A stretch of DNA of 16,050 nt from contig CAMLSH010000026.1 in assembly GCA_946482625.1 (NCBI GenBank), positions 1-16,050 of the forward strand. The letters run 5' to 3'. This DNA comes from an uncultured Opitutaceae bacterium. GTDB taxonomy: Bacteria > Verrucomicrobiota > Verrucomicrobiae > Opitutales > Opitutaceae. This document shows, piece after piece, positions 1,014 to 14,715 of this stretch. Below the pieces are notes generated by a model. It saw only the letters and a program-made list of their open reading frames with translations. It searched no databases and was not told the DNA's origin. The translations under genes and the position numbers were made by a program. The number at the start of each line of letters is the position of its first letter. The first letter of the stretch is position 1.

Positions 1014-1820
1014 TCAGATTCCGAAAAACCGCCGTGCATTCTCCGTGCTGACCTTCGCCAGTTCCTCGTAGCTCACGCCGAAAACCTGTGCCGCAAATTC
1101 CGCCGTGTGCTTCAGGTAAGCCGGCTCGTTCGGCTTACCACGATGCGGCATCGGCGTCAGATAAGGCGCATCCGTCTCCAGCATGAACCGCGACAGCCCC
1201 TGCGCCTTCGCCGCCGCCCGGATCGTCTCTGCCGTCTTGTACGTGAGGATGCCCGTGAACGAACCGTATCCGCCGCGCCGTGTGAGCTCGGCCATCTCGA
1301 CCTCGCCTTCGGTGAAGCAGTGAAAAACCACCTTCGTCCAATCCACCCCGCTCGCATCGATCATCTCCACGGACTCGCGAAACGCCCCGCGCGAATGCAC
1401 CACGAGCGGACATTTCAACTTCGCAGCGATCACCAGTTGCGCCGCAAACGCAGCGCGCTGCCAGCGGAAGATCTTCTCCGCCTGCGCCGCATCATCCTTC
1501 GGCAAATGAAACCGATCGAGTCCACACTCGCCCAACGCCACCGGCGGCGGCTCCGAAAACTGGCTCCAAAACCCCTCGATCTGCGCCACTGCGTCCGGCC
1601 ACAACTCATCCACCGAGCACGGATGCACGCCCACCGTGTAGCGGACAAAGCCCGCGTTCTCCCGGGCGATTTTGCGATACAGCTCCCAGTCATCCGGCGA
1701 CGTGCCGATCGTGATCATCGCCTCCAACCCTGCTTCGCGCGCACGCGTCAACGCGTCCGCAAGCGCGCCTTTATGCGCGAAAGATTCGAGGTGAGTATGC
1801 GTGTCGATCAGCGAGGCCAT
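1014..1820 (-). CDS. TatD-family metal-dependent hydrolase (DNase)
   Basis: Amidohydrolase-superfamily TIM barrel of the TatD/YcfH/YjjV type, a cytoplasmic metal-dependent nuclease. The 268-residue protein begins MASLIDTHTHLE, and the full metal set is visible: His8 and His10 (DTHTH), Glu98 (GECGLD), His142 (VVHSRG), His167 (FHCF) and Asp217 (LETDAPYLTP). GECGLDRF and ETDAPYL match family signatures, and the length equals the family norm of about 260. The frame stays open upstream to 2438, but that part is antisense to the AraC gene and has no similarity, so the ATG at 1820 just before the metal motif is taken. Its 3' end converges on HPr. TatD relatives degrade DNA ends or D-aminoacyl-tRNA-like substrates; the exact subfamily cannot be told here. 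Confidence 0.94.
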   Translation of the reverse strand: MASLIDTHTHLESFAHKGALADALTRAREAGLEAMITIGTSPDDWELYRKIARENAGFVRYTVGVHPCSVDELWPDAVAQIEGFWSQFSEPPPVALGECGLDRFHLPKDDAAQAEKIFRWQRAAFAAQLVIAAKLKCPLVVHSRGAFRESVEMIDASGVDWTKVVFHCFTEGEVEMAELTRRGGYGSFTGILTYKTAETIRAAAKAQGLSRFMLETDAPYLTPMPHRGKPNEPAYLKHTAEFAAQVFGVSYEELAKVSTENARRFFGI

Positions 1821-1955
1821 GCGGCCGAAAATCCCAAACGGCCGCTCTTCAAACGCCAAACAAATCTCCGCCACCGGAAGAAATCTCCTGCGATGTCTGC
1901 TTTGGGCCTGCATTGCCTCCGGCCACCGCGCAACATGCAGGCAACCCCAAAAACG

Positions 1956-2972
1956 ATGCTCGGATTCACACCCGCGAAACGAAAAAAAAGCGGCTCCGAT
2001 TCCCGCCAGCTCTTCGTCGAAACCTTTCGCCGTCAGATCGCCGCCCTCGAAAAAGGCCGCGGCCGCTTTCTCATCCCGCAAAGCCGTCACCTCTACGAGC
2101 GGCATCCGCACATGCAGTACCACTTTAAACCCGAGCTGTTCATCCAGCTCGGCGGCGCGACGGATTTTTCCTTTCCCGACCAACAGGGGTTCACGCTCGA
2201 CGCCGGCGAGATCGGCATCATGCCCAAGGGCGTTCCGCATGGCGAGGTCGTCCGCAGCGGCGCCCGCCCCTTCGAAAACGTCGTCGTCTGCTACTACAAC
2301 GACACCGTCGCCATCCACGTCGCGCACGAGTCGCCGGCCGGCCACCCCGCCGTCGACGACATCTATTTCTTCACGTCTCCATTTTTCAACGACCTCGTCG
2401 AATACCTGAACCGCATCGCCGACCTGCGTTTTCACCAAAGCCCCGCGCGCAACACCGCCATCAAGGGACTCCTCCTCGCCGAACTCGCCCTACTCGTCGC
2501 CATCGTCGAGGAGCAGCAAGCCGGCCTCTACTCCGAAACCGAACGCGCCTTCCGCTGCCAGTGGCTGATCCGAAACAACATCGGCGATCCCACGCTCAGC
2601 GGTGATTCCCTCGCCGCCGAGCTGCGCTGCTCCGCCAGCCATCTCTCCAAACTGTTTCACCGCGAGACCGGCGAACGCATCGTCGAGTACATCACGCGTA
2701 TCCGGCTGACCAATGCCCTAGACGCGATCCGCCACACGAACTTAAGCGTGAAGGAAATCGCCGCCGCCTGCGGCTTCAACGACGCCAACTACTTCGCCCG
2801 CGTTTTCCGCAAATCGACTGGCCGCTCGCCCGTCCAGTATCGCCAGGATCTCCAGCGCATCGCGTCGTCGGTCGAGAAAGAACCCAAGGCGGTTTTCTTC
2901 GATCGCGAAGAACACGACTTCGGCCTCCGCCCCGAGGTCATGGCCCGCGCCTCGGCCAAGATCACGACATAG
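1956..2972 (+). CDS. AraC-family transcriptional regulator with N-terminal cupin domain
   Basis: Likely DNA-binding regulator with a sugar-sensing domain. From the ATG at 1956 it has 338 residues. An N-terminal cupin-like region (about 55-120) includes LDAGEIGIMPKGVPHGE, the typical jelly-roll metal or ligand turn. Two helix-turn-helix units follow at about 216-237 (SLAAELRCSASHLSKLF) and 264-287, the second with the AraC signature VKEIAAACGFNDANYFARVFR...GRSPVQYR. A tail of about 35 residues after the HTH is longer than usual. ATGs at 1893 (with GGAAG 12 bases upstream) and 1935 are in-frame alternatives; the residues they add do not look conserved-like, so 1956 is a cautious choice. It diverges from the tatD-type gene and converges on the sugar operon, ending 70 bases before the kinase stop. 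By position it may control that operon, but no binding site was found. Confidence 0.9.
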   Translation: MLGFTPAKRKKSGSDSRQLFVETFRRQIAALEKGRGRFLIPQSRHLYERHPHMQYHFKPELFIQLGGATDFSFPDQQGFTLDAGEIGIMPKGVPHGEVVRSGARPFENVVVCYYNDTVAIHVAHESPAGHPAVDDIYFFTSPFFNDLVEYLNRIADLRFHQSPARNTAIKGLLLAELALLVAIVEEQQAGLYSETERAFRCQWLIRNNIGDPTLSGDSLAAELRCSASHLSKLFHRETGERIVEYITRIRLTNALDAIRHTNLSVKEIAAACGFNDANYFARVFRKSTGRSPVQYRQDLQRIASSVEKEPKAVFFDREEHDFGLRPEVMARASAKITT

Positions 2973-2983
2973 CGAGTCCTCCC

Positions 2984-3046
2984 GTAGCCGCGTCACTTAA
3001 GACGCGGATTTCACTCAATTTTCCGCGTCTCAAATGACGCGGCTAC
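2984..3046. repeat. REP-doublet (REPIN-like) element A
   Basis: Two inverted units, each GTAG plus a hairpin. Left unit: GTAG (2984-2987), stem CCGCGTC (2988-2994), loop ACTTAA, stem GACGCGG (3001-3007). Right unit, read on the minus strand: GTAG (3046-3043), then the same 7-bp stem (3042-3036 and 3029-3023) with a different loop. A 15-base AT-rich spacer separates them, and the whole element can also fold on itself. GTAG followed by a short palindrome is the hallmark of REP sequences mobilised by RAYT tyrosine transposases. It fills the gap between the convergent AraC and kinase genes and overlaps the last 4 bases of the kinase gene. There is no U-tract, so it is not a canonical terminator, though it may act as one. 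Confidence 0.8.
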
Positions 3047-3918
3047 AACCCCGGCACATCCGCCGGCGCATACTTCGGTTGCGCGCCATCACGACTCGCG
3101 ACAAACGCCCCCAGCGCACACGCCCGTGCGAGCAACGCCTCCCAATCCGGCTTCGCCTCGTTACGCAAAATCCCATCGAGCAACGCCGCCATGAACGAAT
3201 CGCCCGCACCGATCGTGTCGCGCACTTTCACCGGTGGAGACGACGCGCGATAGCTTTTCCCGTCGCGCCACAGCAGCGCGCCGTCCGCGCCGAGCGTCAC
3301 GCACACCATCTCGCACGCGTACGCAGATGCCAGATGCGCCGCCTGCGCTTCGACGCCCGCGTTCTTCAAAGACTCCGACGCGAGCGTCTTCGCTTCGTCG
3401 CCGTTCACTTTGAGCAAGGTGCAGCCGCGAACAAACTCATCGAGTTCTCCGACCGCATCGAAAGGCGGGCGCAGGTTCAGATCGCAGATCCGCCGCACCG
3501 GTTTCGCCGCCAGCCACGCACGCAACACATCGCGATTGTTCGCTCCGCGCAGCGCCAGTGAACCGAAGACCAAGGCCGCCGGCGGACGCTCGCCCGGCAT
3601 AGGCGACGTCGTGATTTCGTCCCACGCCACCGGTCGGTGAATCGTGTAAACCGCCTGCCCTTTCGCATCGAGTTTCACCTCGACCGAACCGGTAGGCAGC
3701 GTCGGATGATGCGTGATCGGACTCACCGGCAACCCAGCCCGCTCGATCAAGGCAATGGTCTCCGCCCCGAGCGCGTCATTACCCACCGCCGAGACCAGCA
3801 TGGGGTCTCGTCCGAGCCGCTTCAAATGATACGCGACATTCAGCGGTGCGCCGCCGAGAAATCGCCCGTGCGGCAGCAGGTCCCAAAGTACTTCACCAAA
3901 ACAAACGACATCGTTCAC
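3043..3918 (-). CDS. PfkB-family carbohydrate kinase, probable fructokinase
   Basis: Ribokinase-fold sugar kinase of 291 residues. Signature 1 is GGAPLNVAYHL at 22-32, DLNLRPP at 146-152 is the usual core block, and signature 2 DTIGAGDSFMAALL (234-247) holds the catalytic base Asp240 and the GAGD anion hole. It probably phosphorylates fructose to fructose 6-phosphate, the product left by the phosphorylase upstream in the operon; substrate is inferred from context, since PfkB kinases are hard to assign by sequence alone. The start is GTG at 3918. The sequence GTGA makes a 4-base overlap with the TGA stop of the MFS permease, which suggests translational coupling and decides the start. The stop codon TAG (3045-3043) is part of the GTAG of REP-like element A. 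Length and motifs are complete. Confidence 0.92.
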   Translation of the reverse strand: MNDVVCFGEVLWDLLPHGRFLGGAPLNVAYHLKRLGRDPMLVSAVGNDALGAETIALIERAGLPVSPITHHPTLPTGSVEVKLDAKGQAVYTIHRPVAWDEITTSPMPGERPPAALVFGSLALRGANNRDVLRAWLAAKPVRRICDLNLRPPFDAVGELDEFVRGCTLLKVNGDEAKTLASESLKNAGVEAQAAHLASAYACEMVCVTLGADGALLWRDGKSYRASSPPVKVRDTIGAGDSFMAALLDGILRNEAKPDWEALLARACALGAFVASRDGAQPKYAPADVPGL

Positions 3919-5162
3919 AGGGCAGAGAGATTATATTCCGTGCGCTCCAGATCGCTCAACCGTCGACGCGCCGGATCGTAGATCCAATTCAGCAACAGAC
4001 CCGCGAAAAGCAAACCGGCGAACCCGGTCGCGAGCATGAAGCCATAACGCGCGTGCCCAAAAAAATCGCTGACCGCGCCCATCGCGAGTGGCCCGGCCGC
4101 CGCCGCTCCGCACGAGAAAAACAAAATCACGCCTGCAACTGCGCCGTGCTCCGACTTCGGCGAACAGCTGATACCTTTGGAATTTAGCGTCGGATAAATC
4201 ACCGACATGAACAACCCTGAGAGCGGGAGAAGAAACACCGCGACATTCACACCGCCCACCGCACTCGCCGCAAAACACAGAAAGATCGCGCCGCCAAACA
4301 CCGCGAGAACCGAGGTCCAACTGAAGAGATTGAGCAGCCACGCCCCGAAGAAACGACCCGCCGCGCGCAGGATGAAGAAAATCGGGATCGCATACATCGC
4401 GACAAACACTGCGTCTCCCGCGTAACCCGCCAGCAGCGTCGGCATCCACACGTAGATCGCGCACTCCACCATGACGTAGAGGGAAAGCCCGAGCGAAAAG
4501 CCCATCGCGTGCGCGTTCTTCATCATCCGCAACGTGCGCTTGAAGTCCACCGGCTCATTCGTGTGCATCACCGTCGGCGGATATTTCACGAACGACGCTG
4601 CAACGATCAGCAACACGCACAACGTCGCCGCGATCACGTACAGCCATTTCCACGACACGCCGGTCGTCAGCAGATGCGCCACGATGGCCGGGCCGACAAT
4701 CGCGCCGACTCCAAAGAACCCCTCGACCGCGTTCATCATCGAGGTGTGCTCGCGATTCGAGCGGGCGATGTCGCCGATCAACGCGAGCGCACCCGTCTTG
4801 AAAATCCCGATGGCCACACCCGACACGACCAGCAGCGCGAGGAAGAACGCGAACGTCGATCCCACCGCGAACAGGTACGCATCGAAGGCAAAGATCACCA
4901 GGCCGAGCAGGATGGTTTTCTTGCGTCCGAGTTTGTCCGCGAAGTACCCGAAAAATCCACCCGCCAGCCCGATCGCCGCCATGCTCGCATAGTGAAACGC
5001 ACTCGCCGCTGTCATGCTCAGGTCAAACTCGCGAATGACCTCCGGGATGATCACGCCGACAGAATCAGTCGTCATCGCAAACATCATGAACATGAGAAAC
5101 GTGAGCCACTTGATGACCCTCAAGTGACGCGGACTGGTGGTGGAAGCGGGAGCGAGGCTCAT
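3915..5162 (-). CDS. MFS sugar permease
   Basis: Major facilitator superfamily inner-membrane transporter of 415 residues with about 12 hydrophobic segments, starting with a cytosolic N-terminal stretch of about 17 residues. GYFADKLGRKK at 72-82 is the conserved MFS loop 2-3 motif (GxxxDxxGRxx), and GAVSDFFGHARYGF in the C-terminal half is a weaker counterpart. A longer central loop lies near KYPPTVMHTNEPVDFKRT. It probably brings the disaccharide from the periplasm into the cytoplasm, most likely by proton symport; substrate is inferred from the phosphorylase 35 bases upstream and the kinase overlapping its stop. It is not obviously a LacY/CscB-type sucrose permease by the motifs I can see. 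The ATG at 5162 gives a normal MFS length. Fusion or truncation is not apparent. Confidence 0.88.
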   Translation of the reverse strand: MSLAPASTTSPRHLRVIKWLTFLMFMMFAMTTDSVGVIIPEVIREFDLSMTAASAFHYASMAAIGLAGGFFGYFADKLGRKKTILLGLVIFAFDAYLFAVGSTFAFFLALLVVSGVAIGIFKTGALALIGDIARSNREHTSMMNAVEGFFGVGAIVGPAIVAHLLTTGVSWKWLYVIAATLCVLLIVAASFVKYPPTVMHTNEPVDFKRTLRMMKNAHAMGFSLGLSLYVMVECAIYVWMPTLLAGYAGDAVFVAMYAIPIFFILRAAGRFFGAWLLNLFSWTSVLAVFGGAIFLCFAASAVGGVNVAVFLLPLSGLFMSVIYPTLNSKGISCSPKSEHGAVAGVILFFSCGAAAAGPLAMGAVSDFFGHARYGFMLATGFAGLLFAGLLLNWIYDPARRRLSDLERTEYNLSAL

Positions 5163-5197
5163 GGAAATTGGGGATATTTTCTGAGGTTAGGAAATGC

Positions 5198-6682
5198 TCA
5201 TGGGATCGCGCTCCGCGTTCCAAGCGGGACGACCATCGCGCCCCGGTGACGCGAGCAGACGATCAACGCTTCGCGCGTTTGGAAGTTCACCGTGAGCCGG
5301 GCGAACGCGTCGCTATTTCGCCACTCTAGTCCCAGCGCATGAGCGGGGGTCGTCAGCACCTCAAACTCACCACCGAATGCCGGATGCGTGTTTCGAAAAC
5401 GAATCAGATCCAGCAGATCCTGCACGACCGGCTTCGTGAGCGCTTGTGCGATATCGGCGGCATTGTAACGGCGGCGATTGATGTCCCGGCCCACCTTCGA
5501 ATGCGCGAGCAGATCCATGTCGTTCGTGCCCGCGAGCAGGCCGACGTAATAAACCTGCGGCACACCCGGTGCGAAAAACTGGATCGCGCGGGCGATCAGA
5601 TAATCCCTGTCGTCCCGGCCAAGCGCGTCGTAGTAAGTCCCGTTTACTTGGAGAAAATCAATATTCGACGCGACCGCGCCCGAAGCCTGACGACTCTCGT
5701 CGCCGCTTTTGCGATGCATCGTCTCAACCAATTCCTCGAGTGCCTCCGGCGGCAGCAAACCGGCGCGACCGGTCGCCGCATCGGCGCCGGCATCGATCAC
5801 ACCGATGCCGTCGTGCGTATCCAGAACCGTGATCGCGTTGCGCGGACTGATCGCGAGCCACGACTTGAGGGGAACGGCGTCGGCCTTGAAAAGCGCGTGG
5901 AGCACCAGCGGCGGCAGCGCGAAATCGTACACGCGGTCCACGCGCTTCGCGATTTCGATCTGGTCGCGGTAGTAACCGTGGACCTCCACGAGCACTTCCA
6001 TCCCAAGCGTCTTCGCGTATTGCGTGAGTTCGCCGATAAACGCGTACGTCTCCGGAATCATGAAGCAGCTCGTGCCGGCGCGTTTGATGGCGTAACCCGC
6101 GGCATCGAGGCGGATCGTGCGCACACCGCCCGCTTGGAATTTCGCGAGGATCGACTTCAGGTACGCTTCGCCCTGCGGGTGGCGCACATCGAGATCGATC
6201 TGTCGCGAAGTAAACGTGGTCCAGAGCGTGCGGCTCTCACCGTTTTTGAGCACCACGCGCGTGAATGGAAGTTCCACACGCGGCCGGTAGATTCTCGCCA
6301 GGTCCGCCTCGCTCGCACCATCGGGGAAAACGCGATCGACCGTGAGAAACATCCCGGCGTACGGCGATTCGTTTCCGCGTACGGAAAAATCCTCAAACTG
6401 AGGCGAGTGCGCCGACATATGATTCACGATCAGATCGGCCATCACGTCCACGTTCTCTCCGAGCGAACGCACGTCGTCCCACGTGCCCAGACGCGGATCG
6501 ACCTGCGTGTGATCGATCGGATCGAAACCCGCGTCCGCACCATCGATGGCGTGAAAGAACGGCAGCAGATGCACGCCGCCAAACACGCCCGCGAGCGGCC
6601 CGCGCAAGACCGTTTGCAGCTCGCGCAAGCCGCCGCCGCCGAGACGATCGACGTACGTGATGAGTTGAACCTGATTTTTCAT
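5198..6682 (-). CDS. GH13_18 sucrose phosphorylase-type enzyme
   Basis: Retaining alpha-glucoside phosphorylase; for sucrose plus phosphate it gives glucose 1-phosphate and fructose without spending ATP. The 494-residue protein begins MKNQVQLITYVDRLGGG and continues GVFGGVHLLPFF and DGADAGFDPIDHT, all close to characterised sucrose phosphorylases. Catalytic residues: Asp193 in IRLDAAGYAIKRAGTSCF (nucleophile), Glu233 in VEVHGYY (acid/base), Asp291 in LDTHDGIGVID (transition-state stabiliser). IYRPR (131-135) keeps the phosphate-side Arg135. The C-terminal half has GVPQVYYVGLLAGTNDMDLL and GRDINRRRY, again family-typical. The acceptor-loop residues are Phe343-Leu344-Gln345, where I recall Leu-Tyr-Gln in the Bifidobacterium enzyme, so a relative such as a glucosylglycerol, glucosylglycerate or sucrose-6'-phosphate phosphorylase cannot be excluded. 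No signal peptide, so it is cytoplasmic. It lies 54 bases after the receptor gene and 35 before the permease. Confidence 0.93.
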   Translation of the reverse strand: MKNQVQLITYVDRLGGGGLRELQTVLRGPLAGVFGGVHLLPFFHAIDGADAGFDPIDHTQVDPRLGTWDDVRSLGENVDVMADLIVNHMSAHSPQFEDFSVRGNESPYAGMFLTVDRVFPDGASEADLARIYRPRVELPFTRVVLKNGESRTLWTTFTSRQIDLDVRHPQGEAYLKSILAKFQAGGVRTIRLDAAGYAIKRAGTSCFMIPETYAFIGELTQYAKTLGMEVLVEVHGYYRDQIEIAKRVDRVYDFALPPLVLHALFKADAVPLKSWLAISPRNAITVLDTHDGIGVIDAGADAATGRAGLLPPEALEELVETMHRKSGDESRQASGAVASNIDFLQVNGTYYDALGRDDRDYLIARAIQFFAPGVPQVYYVGLLAGTNDMDLLAHSKVGRDINRRRYNAADIAQALTKPVVQDLLDLIRFRNTHPAFGGEFEVLTTPAHALGLEWRNSDAFARLTVNFQTREALIVCSRHRGAMVVPLGTRSAIP

Positions 6683-6736
6683 GAAGAACGTGGGCGTGAG
6701 TACGGCGGTATTTTTGCGCGGACCTCGCTGCGCCGT

Positions 6737-9238
6737 TTAGAACGAGTAGCGCAACGTCGTTGAAACCGTCCGACCGGTGATGCCGCGGGCGCGGACGATG
6801 CCGTTAGCGGGGATCGCGTTCTCCTCCGCTTCGCTGAGGCCGAAGGTGTTGAATACGTTGTTCGCGTTGATCGAGAGCGTGAGGCCGCTCCGGATTTCGT
6901 ACGCGAGAAACGCGTTCACATACGCATAGGCCGGGAACACGAGGAGGTTGTCGTCCTGCGCGTAGGCCTTGGTGGTGCCGATCACGCTGCCACCGAGACT
7001 AAGTTTTTTCCACGAGTACGACGGCGCGATCTGGTAGGTGAAATCGGCCTGGCGGCGCGGCGTCTTGCCAACGAGCGCGACCGTCTCGGCCTTGTCGATC
7101 TGCGCATCGGTCCAGGTGGCGCCTGCGCGGACCTCAAACCCACCGAACGCGTAGGCCGCTTCTACTTCAAGGCCGTCAGCACCGTAGACGCGGTCGGTGA
7201 ATCGCTGCGTAGTCAGTTCGTAGTTACTCTCGGTGGTCTCCGCGTGGAAGAACGTTGCGAACAAGCCCAGCGTGCCGGGAACCAGCTTCTGGGTCTGGTA
7301 TTTCAGGCCGGCCTCGATCTGTTCGAGTTCGTTGAAGCTGGCCTTGTCGCCGACGATTGATCCGTCGGCGCGAATCGTGGAGCCGAAAAGAATGCGGTCG
7401 GCGCTCGCGCTCGCTCCGAGGCTGTAGCGGCCAAACGCGGCGAGCGCTTTGTTGAAGGCGTAATTCGCGCCGAGCGAATACGAGGTGAAATTGACGTCGT
7501 AGTTCACCGGGCTCGCGGAGGCGTTGTTAACCGCCGACACACTCTGCTCAGGCACGGAGATCACGCCGTCCTGATTCATGTCGACGTTCGCGAGCTGCGT
7601 GTTGCCGGCGTAGCGGCCGCTCGCCTTGTTTTTGTCGAGACGCGCGCTGGCATCGAGCGTGAGCTGGCCGATCTGCGCAGTGAGCGCGACGAAGGGAGCC
7701 GCCGTGTCGTAATCGACTTCGTAGCTGCGGTGAAGATTGCCCCAGAACGGAACGCCGTACGCGACGAGGCCGTTGTCCGTGACGCGCTGGCTGGTGGCGC
7801 TGTACACGTCGATGAGCGCGCCTTCGCTTTTCACTTCCTGCAAGTACGTGCTCCAGACCCAGTCCATGTCGATTGACTGGCGTGAGGCGTAGAACCCGGC
7901 GGTGACGTCGATCTTGGCGCCCTCAAGTTCGATGAGCTTGTTGAGGCGGAGATCGTTGGAGGAAAGATCGAAGTTGTTGAGCGCCGTATTGAATAAATGG
8001 ACGCGGGCGAGCAGTCCGTTGCCATTGAGCGCCGCGGGGTTCGCGATCACCTGGCCAGCCAGCGGACCGTTGGCGTAGCGGAGCGTCGAGCCAGCGCCGC
8101 CGATCGAGTCCGCGATGACCTGTGCGCTGTCTACCTGCGCAGGAAACGGGGAGATAAAATCGCCTTCGTTGCGGGCGAAACGGGCTTTGTCGGTGAGCGT
8201 CCAACCGCCGCCGAGGTCGAAGCGCACATCGGCGCCGATGGAGGTGGAGATGGCGTGGATGCCGTCTTCGAGATCGCTGACGTGACGGTTGCCGTTCCCG
8301 TCGAGACCGAGCGCGGATTTCAGATAAGGCGTGTTGAGCGTGTCGTATTTTTTATCGAAGCCAGCGATCGAGCTGTAAGTCGGATCGCCGTTCGAGCCGG
8401 TGACGCGCATCGGAATCGGCAAGTACGTGATCGTACGGTCGTCGAGATGCTTGAAGAAAATCCGCACATGCCCGCGCTCGAACTCCTTCGTGACGTTGAA
8501 CTTCAACTGCCCGCCTTTGTTGGCGTCGTAGCCTGCGGTGCGTGGACCTTCGCCGGCGCGGTAAAAACCGCCGACGTGAAAACGCAGCGTGTCGTTCACC
8601 GGACGGCCGTAGTCGAAGTCGAGACGTTGCGTGTCGTAGTCGAGTCCGTAGGTGAACCCGACGCTGCCGCCAGCGGTCTGGCCGGTTTTGCTGATCAAGT
8701 TGATGATGCCGCCCGGCGAATTGCTCGCGAAGGTGGAAGCGGAGCCGCCGCGGATCGCCTCGATATTGGCGACGGTGTAGTCGGCGCGCATGAAGCCGTC
8801 GGCAGTCGCGAAGGCGATGTCGCCAAACTGGAGCAGCGGCAGGCCGTCTTCCTGAAGCTGGAGATAACGCGAGCCGCCTGCGGAGATGGGCGCGCCGCGC
8901 ACGGTGATGTTTGCGTTGCCTTCACCAGACGTCGCCTCGGCGCGAATACCGGGCAGTGTGCGGAAGATCTCCACCGTGGAACGCGGAGCGGAGGCTGCGG
9001 TTTTATCAGCCGGCAGCGTGCTCACCGAGATGGAGGATTTTAGCTTGGTCTCGCCCGGCCGGGCGGTGCCGGTGACGACGAAGGTGTTCAGATTGATCAG
9101 ATCGAGGTCATCGTCGGCGACAGGCGTTGACTGAGCGGGCGACGACGAAACAAAGACAGTCAGCGACGTACCGAGCGCGAATGACGCGCAACGCAAGCGA
9201 CGTCCCGCGCCGAGGGGTAGTGAGTTCATTGAGTTCAT
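6737..9238 (-). CDS. TonB-dependent outer-membrane receptor, probable sugar uptake
   Basis: First gene of the sugar operon, 833 residues. A signal peptide is visible (basic GRRLR, hydrophobic core about 18-31, probable cleavage near SPAQS at 33-37). Then come a short linker, a TonB-box-like TFVVTG (52-57), and a plug domain with RTLPGIRAE (93-101), ITVRG (111-115), the QEDGLPL block (129-135) and IEAIRGGSAS...NSPGGIINLISK (159-184). The rest is a beta-barrel rich in aromatic and Gly residues ending in TTLRYSF, the terminal Phe needed for BAM assembly. No SusD-like lipoprotein follows, so it is a stand-alone receptor rather than a SusCD pair. Two EF-hand-like loops lie at 313-324 and 553-564. 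The frame is open upstream to 9481, but the ATG at 9238 (another at 9229) immediately precedes the signal peptide. Substrate is inferred from the operon. Confidence 0.92.
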   Translation of the reverse strand: MNSMNSLPLGAGRRLRCASFALGTSLTVFVSSSPAQSTPVADDDLDLINLNTFVVTGTARPGETKLKSSISVSTLPADKTAASAPRSTVEIFRTLPGIRAEATSGEGNANITVRGAPISAGGSRYLQLQEDGLPLLQFGDIAFATADGFMRADYTVANIEAIRGGSASTFASNSPGGIINLISKTGQTAGGSVGFTYGLDYDTQRLDFDYGRPVNDTLRFHVGGFYRAGEGPRTAGYDANKGGQLKFNVTKEFERGHVRIFFKHLDDRTITYLPIPMRVTGSNGDPTYSSIAGFDKKYDTLNTPYLKSALGLDGNGNRHVSDLEDGIHAISTSIGADVRFDLGGGWTLTDKARFARNEGDFISPFPAQVDSAQVIADSIGGAGSTLRYANGPLAGQVIANPAALNGNGLLARVHLFNTALNNFDLSSNDLRLNKLIELEGAKIDVTAGFYASRQSIDMDWVWSTYLQEVKSEGALIDVYSATSQRVTDNGLVAYGVPFWGNLHRSYEVDYDTAAPFVALTAQIGQLTLDASARLDKNKASGRYAGNTQLANVDMNQDGVISVPEQSVSAVNNASASPVNYDVNFTSYSLGANYAFNKALAAFGRYSLGASASADRILFGSTIRADGSIVGDKASFNELEQIEAGLKYQTQKLVPGTLGLFATFFHAETTESNYELTTQRFTDRVYGADGLEVEAAYAFGGFEVRAGATWTDAQIDKAETVALVGKTPRRQADFTYQIAPSYSWKKLSLGGSVIGTTKAYAQDDNLLVFPAYAYVNAFLAYEIRSGLTLSINANNVFNTFGLSEAEENAIPANGIVRARGITGRTVSTTLRYSF
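7547..7582 (-). other. EF-hand-like calcium-binding loop in the receptor
   Basis: Residues 553-564 of the TonB-dependent receptor read DMNQDGVISVPE. They fit the 12-residue EF-hand loop with Asp1, Asn3, Asp5, Gly6, Ile8, Ser9 and Glu12 all in place. Its position between barrel strands suggests a surface loop, though the topology has not been modelled. Confidence 0.55.
8267..8302 (-). other. Second, degenerate EF-hand-like loop in the receptor
   Basis: Residues 313-324 of the receptor read DGNGNRHVSDLE. Positions 1, 3, 5, 8, 9 and 12 fit an EF-hand loop, but the usual Gly at position 6 is Arg. Calcium binding is possible but weaker than for the loop at 553-564. Confidence 0.35.
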
Positions 9239-9571
9239 AGGGTGTATCCGGATTGCGCTCACCTGATAGCGGAAGGGTAAGACAGGTGGGGAAAGCGCAG
9301 GCCGATGGATCACCAGTGACGCGACGCGCGGACCGGCGCGACGAGGCAGGCTAGCACTAAACGCGCAAAGCAGGGAAATTTTTGTTCTCGCGTGAAGAAA
9401 TGTGCGGACGAGAAGCAACCACGAGCGCAGCCGCGAAGCGCGGTAGGGCGGGTTATCCCTAACCCGCCGGTTGGACGTCATTCGCGATCAGACGCACAAT
9501 CCGCCTGCGACGTCGCTCCGGCGCGTTAGGGATAACGCGCGCTACCCTCGATCGGGGCAGACCATGAATGG
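9239..9571. other. Gap upstream of the sugar operon: leader region plus REP-like element
   Basis: This 333-base gap must hold the promoter of the receptor-led operon. I could not pick out a convincing -35/-10 pair. The perfect inverted repeat CACCTG (9260-9265) and CAGGTG (9283-9288), with a 17-base spacer, lies 22-50 bases before the receptor ATG. It is a candidate operator half-site pair or leader hairpin. Element B takes 9443-9545. At the far end, GACCAT (9560-9565) and ATGGTC (9568-9573) form a small 6-bp dyad over the carboxypeptidase stop. No gene is supported here. Confidence 0.4.
9443..9545. repeat. REP-doublet (REPIN-like) element B
   Basis: Two inverted units of GTAG plus hairpin. 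Left: GTAG (9443-9446), arms GGCGGGTTA (9447-9455) and TAACCCGCC (9460-9468), loop TCCC, a perfect 9-bp stem. Right, read on the minus strand: GTAG (9545-9542), one C, then arms GCGCGTTA and TAACGCGC (9540-9521) with the same TCCC loop. The inner GTTA-TCCC-TAAC is identical in both units, while the outer stem changes are compensatory, so pairing is kept. The spacer is 52 bases. The element sits between the receptor promoter region and the end of the carboxypeptidase gene. The architecture matches elements A and C, but the stem sequence is a different class. Confidence 0.78.
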
Positions 9572-11071
9572 TCAGCTCAAATACAGCGCGCCGTAGCGTT
9601 CGCGCAGGTAGTGGAGCAGATATTTGGGTGACAGATCTTCGCCGGTCGCGTGGCGCACCAAGCCGAGCGTATCGAGGCGTTTGCCTTGCGCGTGAATCGT
9701 CTCGCGCAACCAGCCGAGCAGCCAGGTGAAATCACCGCGCGCAAACTCCTGCTCCAACTGCGGACGCAGGGTCAGTGCGCGATACCAGAGCTGCGCGGCC
9801 ATCATGTTACCGATGCAATAACTCGGGAAATAACCGAACGCGCCGTCGCTCCAGTGAACATCCTGGAGCACGCCTTCACGGTCGTTCGAAGGCGTCAGCC
9901 CGAGCAACGACCGCGACAACTCGTTCCATGCTTTTGGGAGATCGCGGACGGCGAGTGATCCGTCGAAGAGTTTTTTCTCCAGCTCGAAACGGAGCACGAT
10001 GTGGAGGTTGTAGGTCACCTCGTCGGCATCGACACGGATCAGGGTCGGCTCGACGGCGTTGATCGCGAGATAGAGTTCGTCGGACGAAACCGTTTTCAAC
10101 TGCTCGGAAAAGGCCGCGCGGAATTTCGGTTCGAAGAACGTCCAGAAGCCGCGGCTGCGCGCGACTTGGTTTTCCCAGAGGCGGCTTTGCGACTCATGCA
10201 CACCCATGCCGGTGGCCTGACCGAGCGCGGTGTGGTGTTGATCGGTGGCGAGCCCCTGCTCGTAGAGGCCGTGGCCGGTTTCGTGGATGGAGCTGAAGAG
10301 CGAATCGAGCGGGTTATCTACGTCGAAGCGCGTCGTCATACGGATGTCCGCGCCGTTGCCCGAGCAGAACGGATGCAGCGACACGTCGATGCGGCCACGC
10401 GCGTAGTTGAAGCCGATCGTTTCCGTCACTTCGCGGAGGAACGCGCGCTGTTGTTCGACCGGGAAACCGCGCAACAGATCGGCGCGGGCTTTGATCTTCG
10501 AGCCAACGATCTCGCGCACCAGCGGGACGAGACTGGCTTTGAGTTCGTCGAAAAGTTTCTCGATCACGGCGGCGGTCATGCCCGGATCGTGTTTGTCGAT
10601 CATGTAGTCGTAGGGCGCGTCGCCATGGCCCAAATACGCGGCTTCGCGCTTCGCGAGCTCCAGGTTCTTCTCCAGCACCGGCGCGTAGCGTGCGAAGTCG
10701 GCGTTCTTCTTCGCATCCGCCCAGGCGTGATAACCACGACTGCCCTGCTCCGCTTTTTCACGGACGAAGTCCGCCGGAAGTTTCGTGGCGCGGTCGTAGT
10801 CGCGGCGGGCCCAGCGCACGACGACCTGCTGATCGGGCGTGAGCGTTGGTACGTTCGCTTCGAGCGCCACGAGAAGTTCGCCAATGCGCGGATCGCTCAT
10901 CGCGGCATGCGTCGTTTCTGCGAGCGCGGCGTGCTGGGCGGCACGCTGGGCGGCGCTGTCGGACGGGAGATTAACCTGCTCGTCCCAGCCGAGGATCTGG
11001 CCGATGGAATCGAGCAACTGAGCGCGACGGAGGCGGGCGTTAAGTTCAGAAAAGGCGTCGGATGTGTTCAT
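9572..11071 (-). CDS. M32-family metallocarboxypeptidase (carboxypeptidase Taq)
   Basis: Zinc-dependent cytoplasmic carboxypeptidase that removes C-terminal residues from peptides. The 499-residue length is the family norm. All M32 signatures are visible in order: HPF at 233-235, DIRMTT at 242-247, the zinc motif HETGH at 263-267 (His263, Glu264, His267), HESQS from 292 with the third ligand Glu293, IRVDADEVTYNLH, and near the C-terminus GVLQDVHWSDGAFGYFPSY. The open frame extends to 11131, but the ATG at 11071 starts MNTSDAFSELNARLR, the usual N-terminal helix. No signal peptide. It is 40 bases downstream of the DUF4097 gene on the same strand and may be co-transcribed with it. No odd residues were found in the catalytic blocks. 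Confidence 0.96.
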   Translation of the reverse strand: MNTSDAFSELNARLRRAQLLDSIGQILGWDEQVNLPSDSAAQRAAQHAALAETTHAAMSDPRIGELLVALEANVPTLTPDQQVVVRWARRDYDRATKLPADFVREKAEQGSRGYHAWADAKKNADFARYAPVLEKNLELAKREAAYLGHGDAPYDYMIDKHDPGMTAAVIEKLFDELKASLVPLVREIVGSKIKARADLLRGFPVEQQRAFLREVTETIGFNYARGRIDVSLHPFCSGNGADIRMTTRFDVDNPLDSLFSSIHETGHGLYEQGLATDQHHTALGQATGMGVHESQSRLWENQVARSRGFWTFFEPKFRAAFSEQLKTVSSDELYLAINAVEPTLIRVDADEVTYNLHIVLRFELEKKLFDGSLAVRDLPKAWNELSRSLLGLTPSNDREGVLQDVHWSDGAFGYFPSYCIGNMMAAQLWYRALTLRPQLEQEFARGDFTWLLGWLRETIHAQGKRLDTLGLVRHATGEDLSPKYLLHYLRERYGALYLS

Positions 11072-11111
11072 AAAATTAAGAGCGGCTTCACGCGATCGGA
11101 CCGTGGAAAAC

Positions 11112-12068
11112 TTACAGCGAGGGCACTGCATTCAAACGCACTTGGCCACCGCTCGCGCGGATTTTAATCAACGGGCCACCGCCATTGAGCGTGCCAGTGA
11201 GTGCGGGGGAACCGGGGTTCCCCTTGGTGACGGCGATCTCAATATCCCGAAGGCGGACACTGCCAAAACGAGATGAGCGCGCGTTGATGGTCGCAGCACT
11301 GCGCGGATCGAAGCCAGCCGTCACGTCGCCACCATCGGCGTTGAGATCGGAGGACTGCGTGAGCGGGTGGAGGAAATTCACCTTGATGTCGCTGCGGTTG
11401 CCGCGAGCCATGATCGCACCGCGCGCGGACTGGACCTCGATAAGACCATCGACGGCGGACAACTCGGCGCGGGTGCCGCTTCGTCCGACGAGTACGTTGC
11501 CGTTTTTGGAGAGGAGCTTGAGCGAACCGGTGCAGGCGGTGATGGCGATATCGCCACGCCCATCGGTGGCAGTGATATCGCCCTCGACCTCGCCGATGAA
11601 AATAGCGCCAGCGGTCGTGCGGGCGACGACTCCGCCGCGGACTGCGCCGACGGTGATGTCGCCTTCGCCCGTGCGGAGATCCAGACGGCAACTACGCGGC
11701 GCTTCGATCTCGATCGCCAGGGCTGCAGGCGACCAGTCTTGCCAGGTCCAGCGCGTGGCGTGCAGCGGGGTGATTTTCAACGCCACGGCGCCATCGGGCG
11801 ATTGCGCGAGTTTCACCTCGAGACTCGCGAGGAGTTTTTCGGCAGCCTTTTCGTCGGTCGCTTCGACGGTCTGGCGGACGAGCACCCGCACGTGCGGATC
11901 GTCGGACGTCGTGACGACGATGCCTCCGGAGAAGGTTTCGGCGTTTACGGTGAGGCCCGATTTGGCGGCAAAGGTTTTATCGATCACGCGGTCGATGACG
12001 GCAGCCGCGGACAGCGTTGAGAAAACGAGCACGAGGATGAAACCGAGGAGGCGACCACACGTTTTCAT
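11112..12068 (-). CDS. Exported DUF4097-type beta-repeat protein
   Basis: Function unknown. The 318-residue protein starts MKTCGRLLGFILVLVFSTLS, a clear signal peptide with probable cleavage after AAA at 21-23, so it is periplasmic or cell-surface. The body repeats short beta units with a Gly/Asp turn about every 20 residues: LRTGEGDITVGAVRGGV, TTAGAIFIGEVEGD, TDGRGDIAI, LSKNGNVLVG, VDGLIEVQSARGAI. This pattern is that of the DUF4097/DUF2807 'putative adhesin' families, which form right-handed beta-helix-like folds; no enzymatic residues can be pointed to. The open frame continues upstream to 12278, but that part is Ser/Arg/Pro-rich and lacks coding character, so the ATG at 12068 before the signal peptide is used. 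The metallocarboxypeptidase follows after 40 bases. Confidence 0.85.
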   Translation of the reverse strand: MKTCGRLLGFILVLVFSTLSAAAVIDRVIDKTFAAKSGLTVNAETFSGGIVVTTSDDPHVRVLVRQTVEATDEKAAEKLLASLEVKLAQSPDGAVALKITPLHATRWTWQDWSPAALAIEIEAPRSCRLDLRTGEGDITVGAVRGGVVARTTAGAIFIGEVEGDITATDGRGDIAITACTGSLKLLSKNGNVLVGRSGTRAELSAVDGLIEVQSARGAIMARGNRSDIKVNFLHPLTQSSDLNADGGDVTAGFDPRSAATINARSSRFGSVRLRDIEIAVTKGNPGSPALTGTLNGGGPLIKIRASGGQVRLNAVPSL

Positions 12069-12147
12069 GAAGCGCTCAAAAGGTGCGACTCGCGGCTGTT
12101 GGCAAGTAGCGGATAACGATGCCGAGGGATCTCGGCGGTCCGGGAGC

Positions 12148-12420
12148 TCAGACTTTCGCGCTGTTGTCGCACTTGAAGTGGACCATCGAGCGGCGAAGGG
12201 CGTGGGCGCGAAGAGCGGATTCCTTGGCGCCATCGCGGCTCTTGATGTGGAAGAGACCCGACGCGTTGGCGTTGGCATTAGTTTCCTCCTGCTGCGCGGC
12301 GGTCGCGATCAACAGCAACGTCTCAGCTTTGGCAGGCAAACGGCTCGCGGGAAATCGCGTGTGCGCGGAAAGCCAGCGCAACGTGGTCAGCAAAGAAGAG
12401 GCGGGAACGGAATCACTCAC
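12148..12420 (-). CDS. Small hypothetical protein, doubtful
   Basis: A 90-residue ORF from a GTG at 12420 in the gap between the topoisomerase A and DUF4097 genes. I do not recognise the family. The protein is basic with an amphipathic start (SLLTTLRWLSAHTRF), an Ala/Asn-rich middle (ATAAQQEETNANANASG) and a basic end (RAHALRRSMVHFKCDNSAKV). For it: the second half uses C- or G-ending codons almost throughout (for example GCC AAC GCC AAC GCG), as the real genes here do, and the frame has a plausible composition. Against it: there is no Shine-Dalgarno site, the only ATG start (12540) would run through the REP-like element, and a perfect dyad abuts the GTG. It could also be a chance ORF. Confidence 0.4.
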   Translation of the reverse strand: MSDSVPASSLLTTLRWLSAHTRFPASRLPAKAETLLLIATAAQQEETNANANASGLFHIKSRDGAKESALRAHALRRSMVHFKCDNSAKV

Positions 12421-12437
12421 GCCGCCACTGTGGCGGC
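12421..12437. promoter_or_regulatory. Perfect dyad abutting the small ORF start
   Basis: GCCGCCAC (12421-12428) and GTGGCGGC (12430-12437) are perfect inverted repeats around one base, directly upstream of the GTG at 12420. As DNA it could be an operator. As RNA a 7-bp stem with a CAG loop would sit where the ribosome must bind. Its role is unknown. Confidence 0.35.
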
Positions 12438-12503
12438 TGCGGTCGGGCGGCGTCAAAGCTGGATTCGCAGACGGGCCGATGACGCGCGCCAGCGCGCCCC
12501 CAT

Positions 12504-12571
12504 GTAGCCGCGCTGGCGACAGCGTGGGCAGCAGCGTCACGCCTCAGCCACGCTGGGGACAGCGCGGCTAC
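12504..12571. repeat. REP-doublet (REPIN-like) element C
   Basis: Left unit: GTAG (12504-12507), arms CCGCGCTG (12508-12515) and CAGCGTGG (12520-12527), loop GCGA. Right unit on the minus strand: GTAG (12571-12568), arms CCGCGCTG and CAGCGTGG (12567-12548), loop TCCC. Both units carry the same single G-T wobble at the third stem pair, so they are copies of one sequence in inverse orientation. The spacer is 20 bases. The element lies 23 bases past the topoisomerase A stop codon, where it may stabilise or end that transcript. Its GTAGCCGCG start is shared with element A. Confidence 0.8.
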
Positions 12572-12594
12572 ACTGGAATACGGCCGCCAACTGG

Positions 12595-14715
12595 TCAGCT
12601 CTTCCGGACGCGCTTGATCGGGTACTCGGTGACCGTGATGCCTTTGGCACCGCGACCGCCGACAGAGAGTTCGCTGAGATCGAAGGAAAACTCCTTCTTT
12701 CGCGCACTGCAGCGCGCGCTCAACTCCACCTCGACGGATTTCGGCAACGAGGCCTCCGTCTTCGCGACATCGAAGAACACGACCTTCGAGCCTTCGCTCG
12801 CGGTGAGCGGGTAAAGTTTTTCGCGGGTCACGCCACCGACTTGGAAGCGTTTGGCGAAGGCTTTGCCGCTTTCCTTGTCCTGGTAGATCATCGTGTAGAA
12901 CGCGGTGTCTCCGTCTTTCGGCAACAGCGCGACATGGAGGATCTCACGGCCCATGAATACTTTGTCGGCCACACGCGCGACCTTCATCGTACCATCGGCC
13001 ATGAAGCAGATGACGTCGTCGAGGATCGTGCACTCGGTGAGGAACTCGTGCTGGCGCCAGTTGAGACCGATGAAGCCTTCTTCGCGATTCACGTAGAGTC
13101 GCTGGTTGGCGGATACGACGGCGGCGGCGCTAATCTGTTCGATCTCGTCGTACGTGGTGCGACGCTTGTGGCCTTTGCCGTATTTTTCCTGGAGGCGCTC
13201 GAACCAAGCGATCGCGTACTCGGTGAGATGTTTGAGGTGGTGTTTCACCTCTTTCATTTCGCCTTCGAGCTTCTTGATCTGCTCGTCGGCCTGGAAGCGG
13301 TTAAACTTCGAGATGCGTTTGATCTTAATCTCGGTGAGCCGGGTGATGTCGTCGTCGGTCACTTCGCGACGCAGAGATTTGATGAACGGCTTCAATCCAT
13401 CGCGGATCTCCGAGAGAACGTTTTCCCACGTCTCCGATTTTTCGATCCGGCGATAAATGCGCTCCTCGATGAAGATGCGCTCGAGCGAATCCCAGTGCCA
13501 TTGTTGGTCGAGTTCTTCGAGGCGGATTTCCAGTTCGCGCTTGAGCAGGGCGACCGTCTTGTCGGTGCTGCGGCGGAGGATTTCCGACACGCCGAGGAAG
13601 TGCGGTTTGTCGTTCTCGATGATGCACGCGGCGGGCGAAATCGACACCTGGCAATCCGTGAAGACGTAAAGCTGCTGCGTGATCTTCTCGGGATCGCTGC
13701 CTGCGGGTAAATGGACCAGGATCTCGACCGTGTCGGCGGTATTATCGTCGACGTGCTTGATCTTAAGTTTGCCCTTCGCGTTGGCGGACAGGATCGACTC
13801 GATGAGCGAGGTCGTGGTGGTGCCGTAGGGCAGTTCGGTGATCGCGAGGACGTTCTTGCCGCGCGATTCCATCTTGGCGCGGACCTTCACTTTGCCGCCG
13901 CGCTCGCCGTCATTGTACTCGGAGAAATCGGCGATGCCGCCGGTCGGGAAATCGGGGAATATCCGGAATTTCTTTCCGTTGAGATGATTGATCGAGGCGC
14001 GGCAGAGATCGTTGAAATTGTGCGGCAGGATCTTCGTCGCGAGGCCGACCGCGATGCCTTCGGCGCCCTCGGCGAGCGTGAGGGGGAACTTGACCGGCAA
14101 CGTGACGGGTTCGCGATTGCGACCGTCGTAGCTGAGCTGCCAGGTCGTGGTCTTGGGATTGAAAACCACTTCGCGTGCAAACGGCGTGAGGCGGGCCTCG
14201 ATGTAACGCGAGGCAGCGGCGCCGTCGCCGGTGTAGAGATTGCCGAAATTCCCCTGCGGCTCGATGAGCAGGCCGCGTTGCGCGATGCCGACGAGCGCGG
14301 CGCCGATGGAGGCGTCACCGTGCGGGTGATAGCGCATGGCGGCGCCGACGACGTTGGCGACCTTGTTGAAACGGCCGTCGTCCATCTCCCAAAGCGTGTG
14401 GAGAATGCGGCGCTGAACGGGTTTCAGGCCGTCGTCAATGTGTGGAACGGCGCGGTCGAGGATGACGTAGCTGGCGTATTCGAGGAACCACTTCTCGTAA
14501 GACTTCGCGAGCGGGGCGTTGTCGTTGTTACCCGGCGCGGGAGGCGTGTCGTCGACCGGAGGAGGCGGGGGCGTGGTTGCGAGCGCTGTGTCATCACTGG
14601 CTGCAGCGGTCGGAACAGGCGCTTCGGCGCCACCGGCATCAGCGGGCTCGGAAGCACTGGCAGAGAGCGGAAGCTCGGGCTGGTCGTCGGGTTTCTTGGG
14701 AGTCTTTTTAGGCAT
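12595..14715 (-). CDS. Type IIA DNA topoisomerase subunit A (GyrA/ParC-like)
   Basis: DNA-breaking and rejoining subunit; with the B subunit encoded just upstream it changes DNA supercoiling or unlinks DNA by double-strand passage. 706 residues. Residues 1-70 are a Lys-, then Ala/Pro/Asp-rich low-complexity extension, probably disordered. The catalytic core follows: DGLKPVQRRILHTLWEM (95-111), YHPHGDASIGAAL (129-141), and the catalytic Tyr171 in AAASRYIEARLTPF. A coiled-coil-like region (LEGEMKEVKHHLKHL) and a C-terminal region ending GGRGAKGITVTEYPIKRVRKS come after. There is no canonical GyrA box (QRRGGKG), which favours a ParC-like, decatenating enzyme over a gyrase; the style matches the Bacteroidetes-type pair. 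It starts 70 bases after the B-subunit stop and is probably in one operon with it. Exact gyrase or topo IV activity cannot be told. Confidence 0.9.
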   Translation of the reverse strand: MPKKTPKKPDDQPELPLSASASEPADAGGAEAPVPTAAASDDTALATTPPPPPVDDTPPAPGNNDNAPLAKSYEKWFLEYASYVILDRAVPHIDDGLKPVQRRILHTLWEMDDGRFNKVANVVGAAMRYHPHGDASIGAALVGIAQRGLLIEPQGNFGNLYTGDGAAASRYIEARLTPFAREVVFNPKTTTWQLSYDGRNREPVTLPVKFPLTLAEGAEGIAVGLATKILPHNFNDLCRASINHLNGKKFRIFPDFPTGGIADFSEYNDGERGGKVKVRAKMESRGKNVLAITELPYGTTTTSLIESILSANAKGKLKIKHVDDNTADTVEILVHLPAGSDPEKITQQLYVFTDCQVSISPAACIIENDKPHFLGVSEILRRSTDKTVALLKRELEIRLEELDQQWHWDSLERIFIEERIYRRIEKSETWENVLSEIRDGLKPFIKSLRREVTDDDITRLTEIKIKRISKFNRFQADEQIKKLEGEMKEVKHHLKHLTEYAIAWFERLQEKYGKGHKRRTTYDEIEQISAAAVVSANQRLYVNREEGFIGLNWRQHEFLTECTILDDVICFMADGTMKVARVADKVFMGREILHVALLPKDGDTAFYTMIYQDKESGKAFAKRFQVGGVTREKLYPLTASEGSKVVFFDVAKTEASLPKSVEVELSARCSARKKEFSFDLSELSVGGRGAKGITVTEYPIKRVRKS

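Follow-up and report, generated by a model that had tools for sequence, protein, structure and literature searches.

The window is the whole 16,050-nucleotide stretch of Opitutaceae DNA that was analyzed. Nine of the ten window frames submitted to Pfam gave matches, comprising HPr, an AraC-type regulator, a pfkB-type sugar kinase, an MFS carrier, an alpha-amylase-type enzyme, a TonB-dependent receptor, an M32 carboxypeptidase, and A- and B-type subunits of gyrase/topoisomerase IV. The frame at 11112-12278 (388 aa) has a positive codon score and no Pfam match. Searches of the window with Rfam and for tRNAs gave no match. Three short elements, referred to as E1, E2, and E3, lie between or at the ends of these genes, and their component repetitive extragenic palindromes (REPs) were delimited by a structural scan:

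1107-2972, plus strand, AraC-type regulator
2984-3046, no strand assigned, REPIN E1, type A homodimer with a 15-nt spacer and loops ACTTAA and ATTTGA
2984-3007, plus strand, left REP of E1
3023-3046, minus strand, right REP of E1
3043-3918, minus strand, pfkB-type kinase
6737-9481, minus strand, TonB-dependent receptor (longest frame)
9443-9545, no strand assigned, REPIN E2, heterodimer of a left half with a G-type stem (GG/CC) and a right half with a C-type stem (CG/CG)
9443-9468, plus strand, left REP of E2
9521-9545, minus strand, right REP of E2
9572-11131, minus strand, M32 carboxypeptidase
12504-12571, no strand assigned, REPIN E3, type A homodimer with stem CCGCGCT/AGCGTGG and a 20-nt spacer
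12504-12527, plus strand, left REP of E3
12548-12571, minus strand, right REP of E3
12595-14715, minus strand, topoisomerase IV/gyrase A-type gene

Each element consists of two hairpins facing head to head, and GTAG marks both of its outer ends. In all six hairpins, this tetranucleotide, which defines the GTAG REP superfamily, is found 0 to 2 nt from the stem-loop, and in all three elements the two inverted REPs lie within ∼200 bp of each other and fold as one hairpin. E1 reads GTAG, CCGCGTC, 6 nt, and GACGCGG, followed by the inverted copy and CTAC; its stems (CCGCGTC/GACGCGG) are perfect, and the halves of E2 and E3 contain mismatches. E2 reads GTAG followed by GGCGGGTTA-TCCC-TAACCCGCC, with GTAGCGCGCGTTATCCCTAACGCGC as its inverted partner, while E3 holds two inverted copies of GTAG, CCGCGCT, 6 nt, and AGCGTGG, in which one pair is non-Watson-Crick. 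E1 is located 11 nt past the frame of the AraC-type regulator and also borders the convergent kinase gene, the TAG stop of which is supplied by the GTAG tag of the right half of E1 (3043-3046). E2 is located 26 nt past the stop codon of the M32 carboxypeptidase; the longest frame of the TonB-dependent receptor would begin inside E2 and, judged by eye, the true start of this gene is probably further in. E3 is located 23 nt past the stop codon of the topoisomerase gene.

The initial annotation of the window had reported three inverted GTAG hairpin doublets at these positions. This is borne out. A structural scan for GTAG followed by a stem of at least 7 pairs (one mismatch allowed), with head-to-head doublets scored within 200 bp, returned exactly three doublets in the window, namely E1, E2, and E3, versus 0 in 100 first-order Markov shuffles, and seven single GTAG hairpins versus a mean of 1.06 per shuffled window. 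Consistently, E1, E2, and E3 correspond to inverted repeats I1, I5, and I7, the sole ones among 25 listed with arms less than 100 nt apart. As single-stranded DNA, each element folds into one long hairpin, with z-scores of −9.4 (E1), −5.9 (E2), and −4.9 (E3). Using the same scan, we found 20 doublets in 400 kb sampled from the related genome G041, none in 700 kb sampled from the related genome G042, and 8 in 1.37 Mb covering 80 loci of relatives, compared with 3 in 16 kb in the window; at the density of G041, at least three doublets in 16 kb would occur with a probability of 0.05.

The three elements had been taken for members of one dense family. Rather, they belong to two REP types, which does not support a single dense family: E1 and E3 are of type A (GTAGCCGCGYY-N6-RRCGYGG), and E2 is of a distinct type (GTAGNGCGNNTTATCCNTAANNCGC). 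Both patterns were searched in the same 150 genomes, drawn from the family of Opitutaceae bacterium EW11 (G001). Type A matched in 14 of these genomes and is multi-copy in four, with 119 copies in G090, 28 in G042, 17 in G143, and 5 in G041. The other 10 genomes have one or two matches each; this is no more than in a control with the reversed pattern (24 matches in 21 of the 150 genomes, at most three per genome), and it is the copy number that stands out. The single matches in G048, G085, G086, and G107 almost repeat the G090 sequence, and the left REP of E1 has letter-for-letter copies in G042. The E2 type matched in 28 of the 150 genomes, with a maximum of 114 copies in G126, 22 in G041, and only 2 in G042, while its reversed-pattern control gave 0 matches in all 150. 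Both types are thus multi-copy in some related genomes, and the identification of the elements as GTAG-tagged REP doublets (REPINs) is supported.

The stems covary. Among the 32 distinct E2-type sites available as sequence, the two in the window included, 31 are complementary at the two free stem positions per side, in four combinations. For type A, 62 of 69 sites are complementary, a result weakened by the YY/RR search pattern, which itself favored pairing. When halves of the E2 type are classed as C-type (CG, CA) or G-type (GA, GG, GC), 25 of the 28 head-to-head pairs among the matches listed join a C-type half to a G-type half, versus about half expected (binomial p 3e-5). The window copy of E2 is such a heterodimer, whereas E1 and E3 are homodimers. 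Heterodimers of GTAG REPs are already in print (PMC3733652).

Neither the open reading frames of the window nor the Pfam analysis of ten frames disclosed a gene for a REP-associated tyrosine transposase (RAYT), in agreement with the initial annotation; for an element that is non-autonomous, such an absence is to be expected. Y1_Tnp matches, IS200/IS605-type included, were present in 25 of 31 relatives. The closest relative found, G042 (one contig of 4.73 Mb, ParC 92% identical), carries three Y1 genes (L188, L189, and L190), and all three proteins score above the cut-off of NF047646 (REP-associated tyrosine transposase). One of them matches the E. coli TnpA_REP structure 4er8 (E 3e-7) with the HUH and NPV motifs aligned, and the G042 proteins combine the HUH motif and catalytic tyrosine region with REPs beside the gene. 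GTAG hairpins adjoin all three genes, with a different type at each (L188 and L189 by eye), and loci in G041 and G065 show a similar arrangement. From these genes and their adjoining hairpins, we conclude that RAYT machinery exists in the lineage. The initial annotation had proposed looking for a RAYT gene flanked by the same palindromes as in the window. GTAG hairpins flank the RAYTs of G042, but type A REPs are absent from the three 8-kb RAYT stretches of G042 and from the two RAYT loci of G090, the genome richest in type A. Many B-type REPs of G042 have a TTCCGAG-like stretch just before GTAG, which is perhaps the target or part of the unit.

Window positions 9577-14576 are collinear with G042 at 82% identity, and a 68-bp type A REPIN with alignable flanks follows the topoisomerase gene in both (E3 in the window). 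The outer 10 bases of the two REPINs agree at 10 and 9 positions; by contrast, the inner parts agree at 6 of 14, 4 of 20 (the spacer, ungapped), and 5 of 14. With gaps, the spacer score was reached by 325 of 2,000 shuffles, and by 109 of 2,000 with softer gap costs. The spacers are therefore not significantly alike, and descent of E3 by drift from a form shared with the G042 REPIN appears less likely. Rather, the comparison of this single site suggests that one REPIN likely took another's place since the split from G042. A REPIN after parC is not a conserved feature: within 260 nt past this gene, a doublet was found in 0 of 80 relatives and a single GTAG hairpin in 7 of 80. Near the place of E2, G042 carries a lone REP that belongs to a different type. 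For the window stretch with the regulator and E1, the 36 kb of G042 included in the comparison gave no match. Window positions 3915-9576, which hold the block of carrier, amylase-type, and TonB receptor genes, likewise lack a match at the collinear position of G042; there, only ∼120 bp separate the ends of the neighboring alignments, and this interval contains a single B-type REP.

We consider it highly probable (roughly 0.9) that E1 to E3 are REPINs, i.e., non-autonomous pairs of GTAG-tagged REP hairpins of two co-resident types on an Opitutaceae chromosome, each placed just past the stop codon of a gene. The position of all three elements 11 to 26 nt past a stop codon and their GC-rich hairpins would equally suit ordinary transcription terminators or 3′ mRNA-stabilizing hairpins that start with GTAG by chance; however, none of the 36 terminator-like (T-run) sites listed for the window falls in E1 to E3, and neither a shared tag and doublet plan nor many same-sequence copies in other genomes are expected of such structures, making this explanation very improbable. 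We give practically no credence to chance palindromes in a GC-rich genome: single GTAG hairpins do arise about once per shuffled window, but the doublets do not, and the folding z-scores, the many copies, and the covariation in relatives all argue against this origin. It is a weightier, if still doubtful, proposition that the REPINs have lost their RAYT and are no longer mobile. The lack of type A REPs beside the RAYTs examined in G042 and G090 and the mismatches in the halves of E2 and E3 are in keeping with such a loss, while the perfect stems of E1, the identity of its left REP with G042 copies, and the apparent change of REPIN at the E3 site speak against it.

If E1 to E3 are REPINs, a RAYT encoded elsewhere, an HUH tyrosine (Y1) enzyme, would bind single-stranded DNA at the GTAG foot and the hairpin, and would copy or move the REPIN unit. 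Copies may persist at gene ends because they would do little damage there, and the doublet as RNA would be predicted to form a long 3′ hairpin.

The many REPs of the relatives allowed their direction relative to replication to be analyzed. The GC skew of G042 ranges from −0.34 to +0.35 per 20 kb and switches near 2.1 and 4.55 Mb. A single exact parS-like site, TGTTCCACGTGGAACA, was found in five of five genomes searched (L252, 1501-1516, and one place each in G042, G041, G143, and G008); it is located at 2,155,199 in G042 and at 1,085,838 in G041, at the minus-to-plus switch of the skew. In G001, this site falls within a frame that by eye resembles mnmG and is preceded by an mnmE-like one. The site at 2,155,199 likely marks the origin of G042. 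The skew of G042 is very strong and has no clear relation to gene orientation; dnaA is located at 1.1 kb, a long way from both the skew minimum and the parS-like site (2.155 Mb). Gene orientation and the position of dnaA had suggested an inverted skew in G042, with replication starting near dnaA and a leading strand rich in C; this option was dropped because the parS-like site lies at the minus-to-plus switch and gene orientation is uninformative. An rRNA search addressing the origin gave nothing in two of two genomes, which we take as a miss of the method.

Most of the listed type A and B REPs of G042 are single. Among the 26 type A matches listed (28 in all), 20 have no listed partner, and among the 43 type A and B matches listed, 32 have none (one of these 32, at 2100931, does have a degenerate partner). 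In 30 of these 32, the strand bearing GTAG is the C-rich one of the replication arm concerned (Fisher p 7e-7); based on the skew of the surrounding 6 kb, 26 of 31 examined conform. Similarly, 10 of 11 hairpins in 35 G042 stretches chosen regardless of REPs conform by arm, two of the 11 having been counted already and ∼1.6 being expected by chance in shuffles. In G143, 15 of the 17 type A matches were examined (two overlapping opposite matches were left out), and GTAG is on the locally C-rich strand in 13, both exceptions lying in weakly skewed stretches; REPs of other types, some of them neighbors, conform in 8 of 8 cases. Partner-like sequence within 120 nt exceeded the 99th percentile of the control at 1 of 20 sites in G042 and 0 of 15 in G143. 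In G041, which has weak skew and many doublets, polarity was not significant: 14 of 21 unpaired structural hairpins conform (Fisher p 0.18), as do 4 of 5 listed type A matches and 4 of 12 listed unpaired matches of the E2 type. These counts do not support polarity as a rule of the family. Based on a rough codon-based gene caller, 25 of 31 unpaired REPs in G042 are in sense downstream of a neighboring gene, making gene orientation a partial confounder of the polarity. However, the arm rule is still obeyed by the six REPs that are not in sense, and both REPs that break it are in sense.

The near-uniform direction of single copies relative to replication in two relatives is unexpected. Taking the origin to lie at the skew minimum, GTAG falls on the nascent lagging strand, which is equivalent to the leading-strand template. 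A preference for C-rich target DNA is a possible cause and the cheapest reading, although the better fit of the arm rule than of the local skew is mildly against it. Other possible causes are that copies with GTAG facing the lagging template are removed, or that copies are captured where DNA is opened at head-on genes. We speculate, with low confidence, that in strongly GC-skewed Opitutaceae the spreading unit is the single REP rather than the doublet, and that its spread is strand-specific. RAYT-type dispersal would then put the GTAG strand, or allow it to remain, almost exclusively on the lagging-strand side of each replication arm, which is C-rich, and usually in sense behind genes oriented head-on to the fork, where DNA would be exposed when fork and transcription collide; doublets could replace each other at an occupied site.

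Contrary to the supposition that REPINs may be poorly described in Verrucomicrobia-like bacteria, Opitutus terrae was reported to be highly enriched in GTAG repeats by Di Nocera et al. in 2013 (PMC3733652). As described there, GTAG REP families share with the elements studied here the GTAG foot, stems of 6 to 13 bp, head-to-head dimers, several families per genome, a location mostly downstream of genes, complementary stem changes, and homo- and heterodimers; our two types were set beside these families by description rather than by the consensus sequences of the numbered families. The main text of that paper does not contain the terms lagging, leading strand, replichore, strand bias, or GC skew. 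The elements also resemble the REPINs of Pseudomonas fluorescens SBW25 as presented by Bertels and Rainey in 2011 (PMC3116915), in which two inverted REPs and a spacer form one hairpin and are dispersed and tied to RAYTs. According to the same account, tandem REP arrays of SBW25 are in forward orientation on one side of the chromosome and in reverse on the other, a forerunner of the singlet polarity, and SBW25 singlets are interpreted as what is left of decayed doublets. In contrast, nearly all examined type A singlets of G042 and G143 are polar and without a recognizable partner remnant. The E. coli REP/BIME system with TnpA_REP (PDB 4er8) is similar in that one G042 RAYT is homologous and, as outlined in PMC6006769, REP subtypes are paired; it differs in its stems and loops, and RAYT action on types A and E2 is only putative. 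By analogy with IS200/IS605 elements (IS608, ISDra2) as summarized in PMC6006769, HUH Y1 chemistry on hairpins and coupling to the lagging-strand template may apply here. Unlike those elements, REPINs are non-autonomous, and the polarity in G042 is the reverse of what IS608-like insertion into the lagging-strand template, read simply, would predict.

E1 to E3 extend a described phenomenon to another Opitutaceae chromosome. Among the titles listed by searches of the open-licence literature, none dealt with REPs and the replication strand, and within the literature searched, the singlet polarity and the exchange of REPINs at a site are the only parts that might be new. To our knowledge, the spread of REPs has never been watched directly. 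The polar singlets in two strongly skewed genomes would provide a readout of the DNA strand used, and may matter more than the elements of the window themselves, as they touch on two questions, namely whether REPs are mobilized as single-stranded DNA at replication forks and whether a singlet is a dead remnant.
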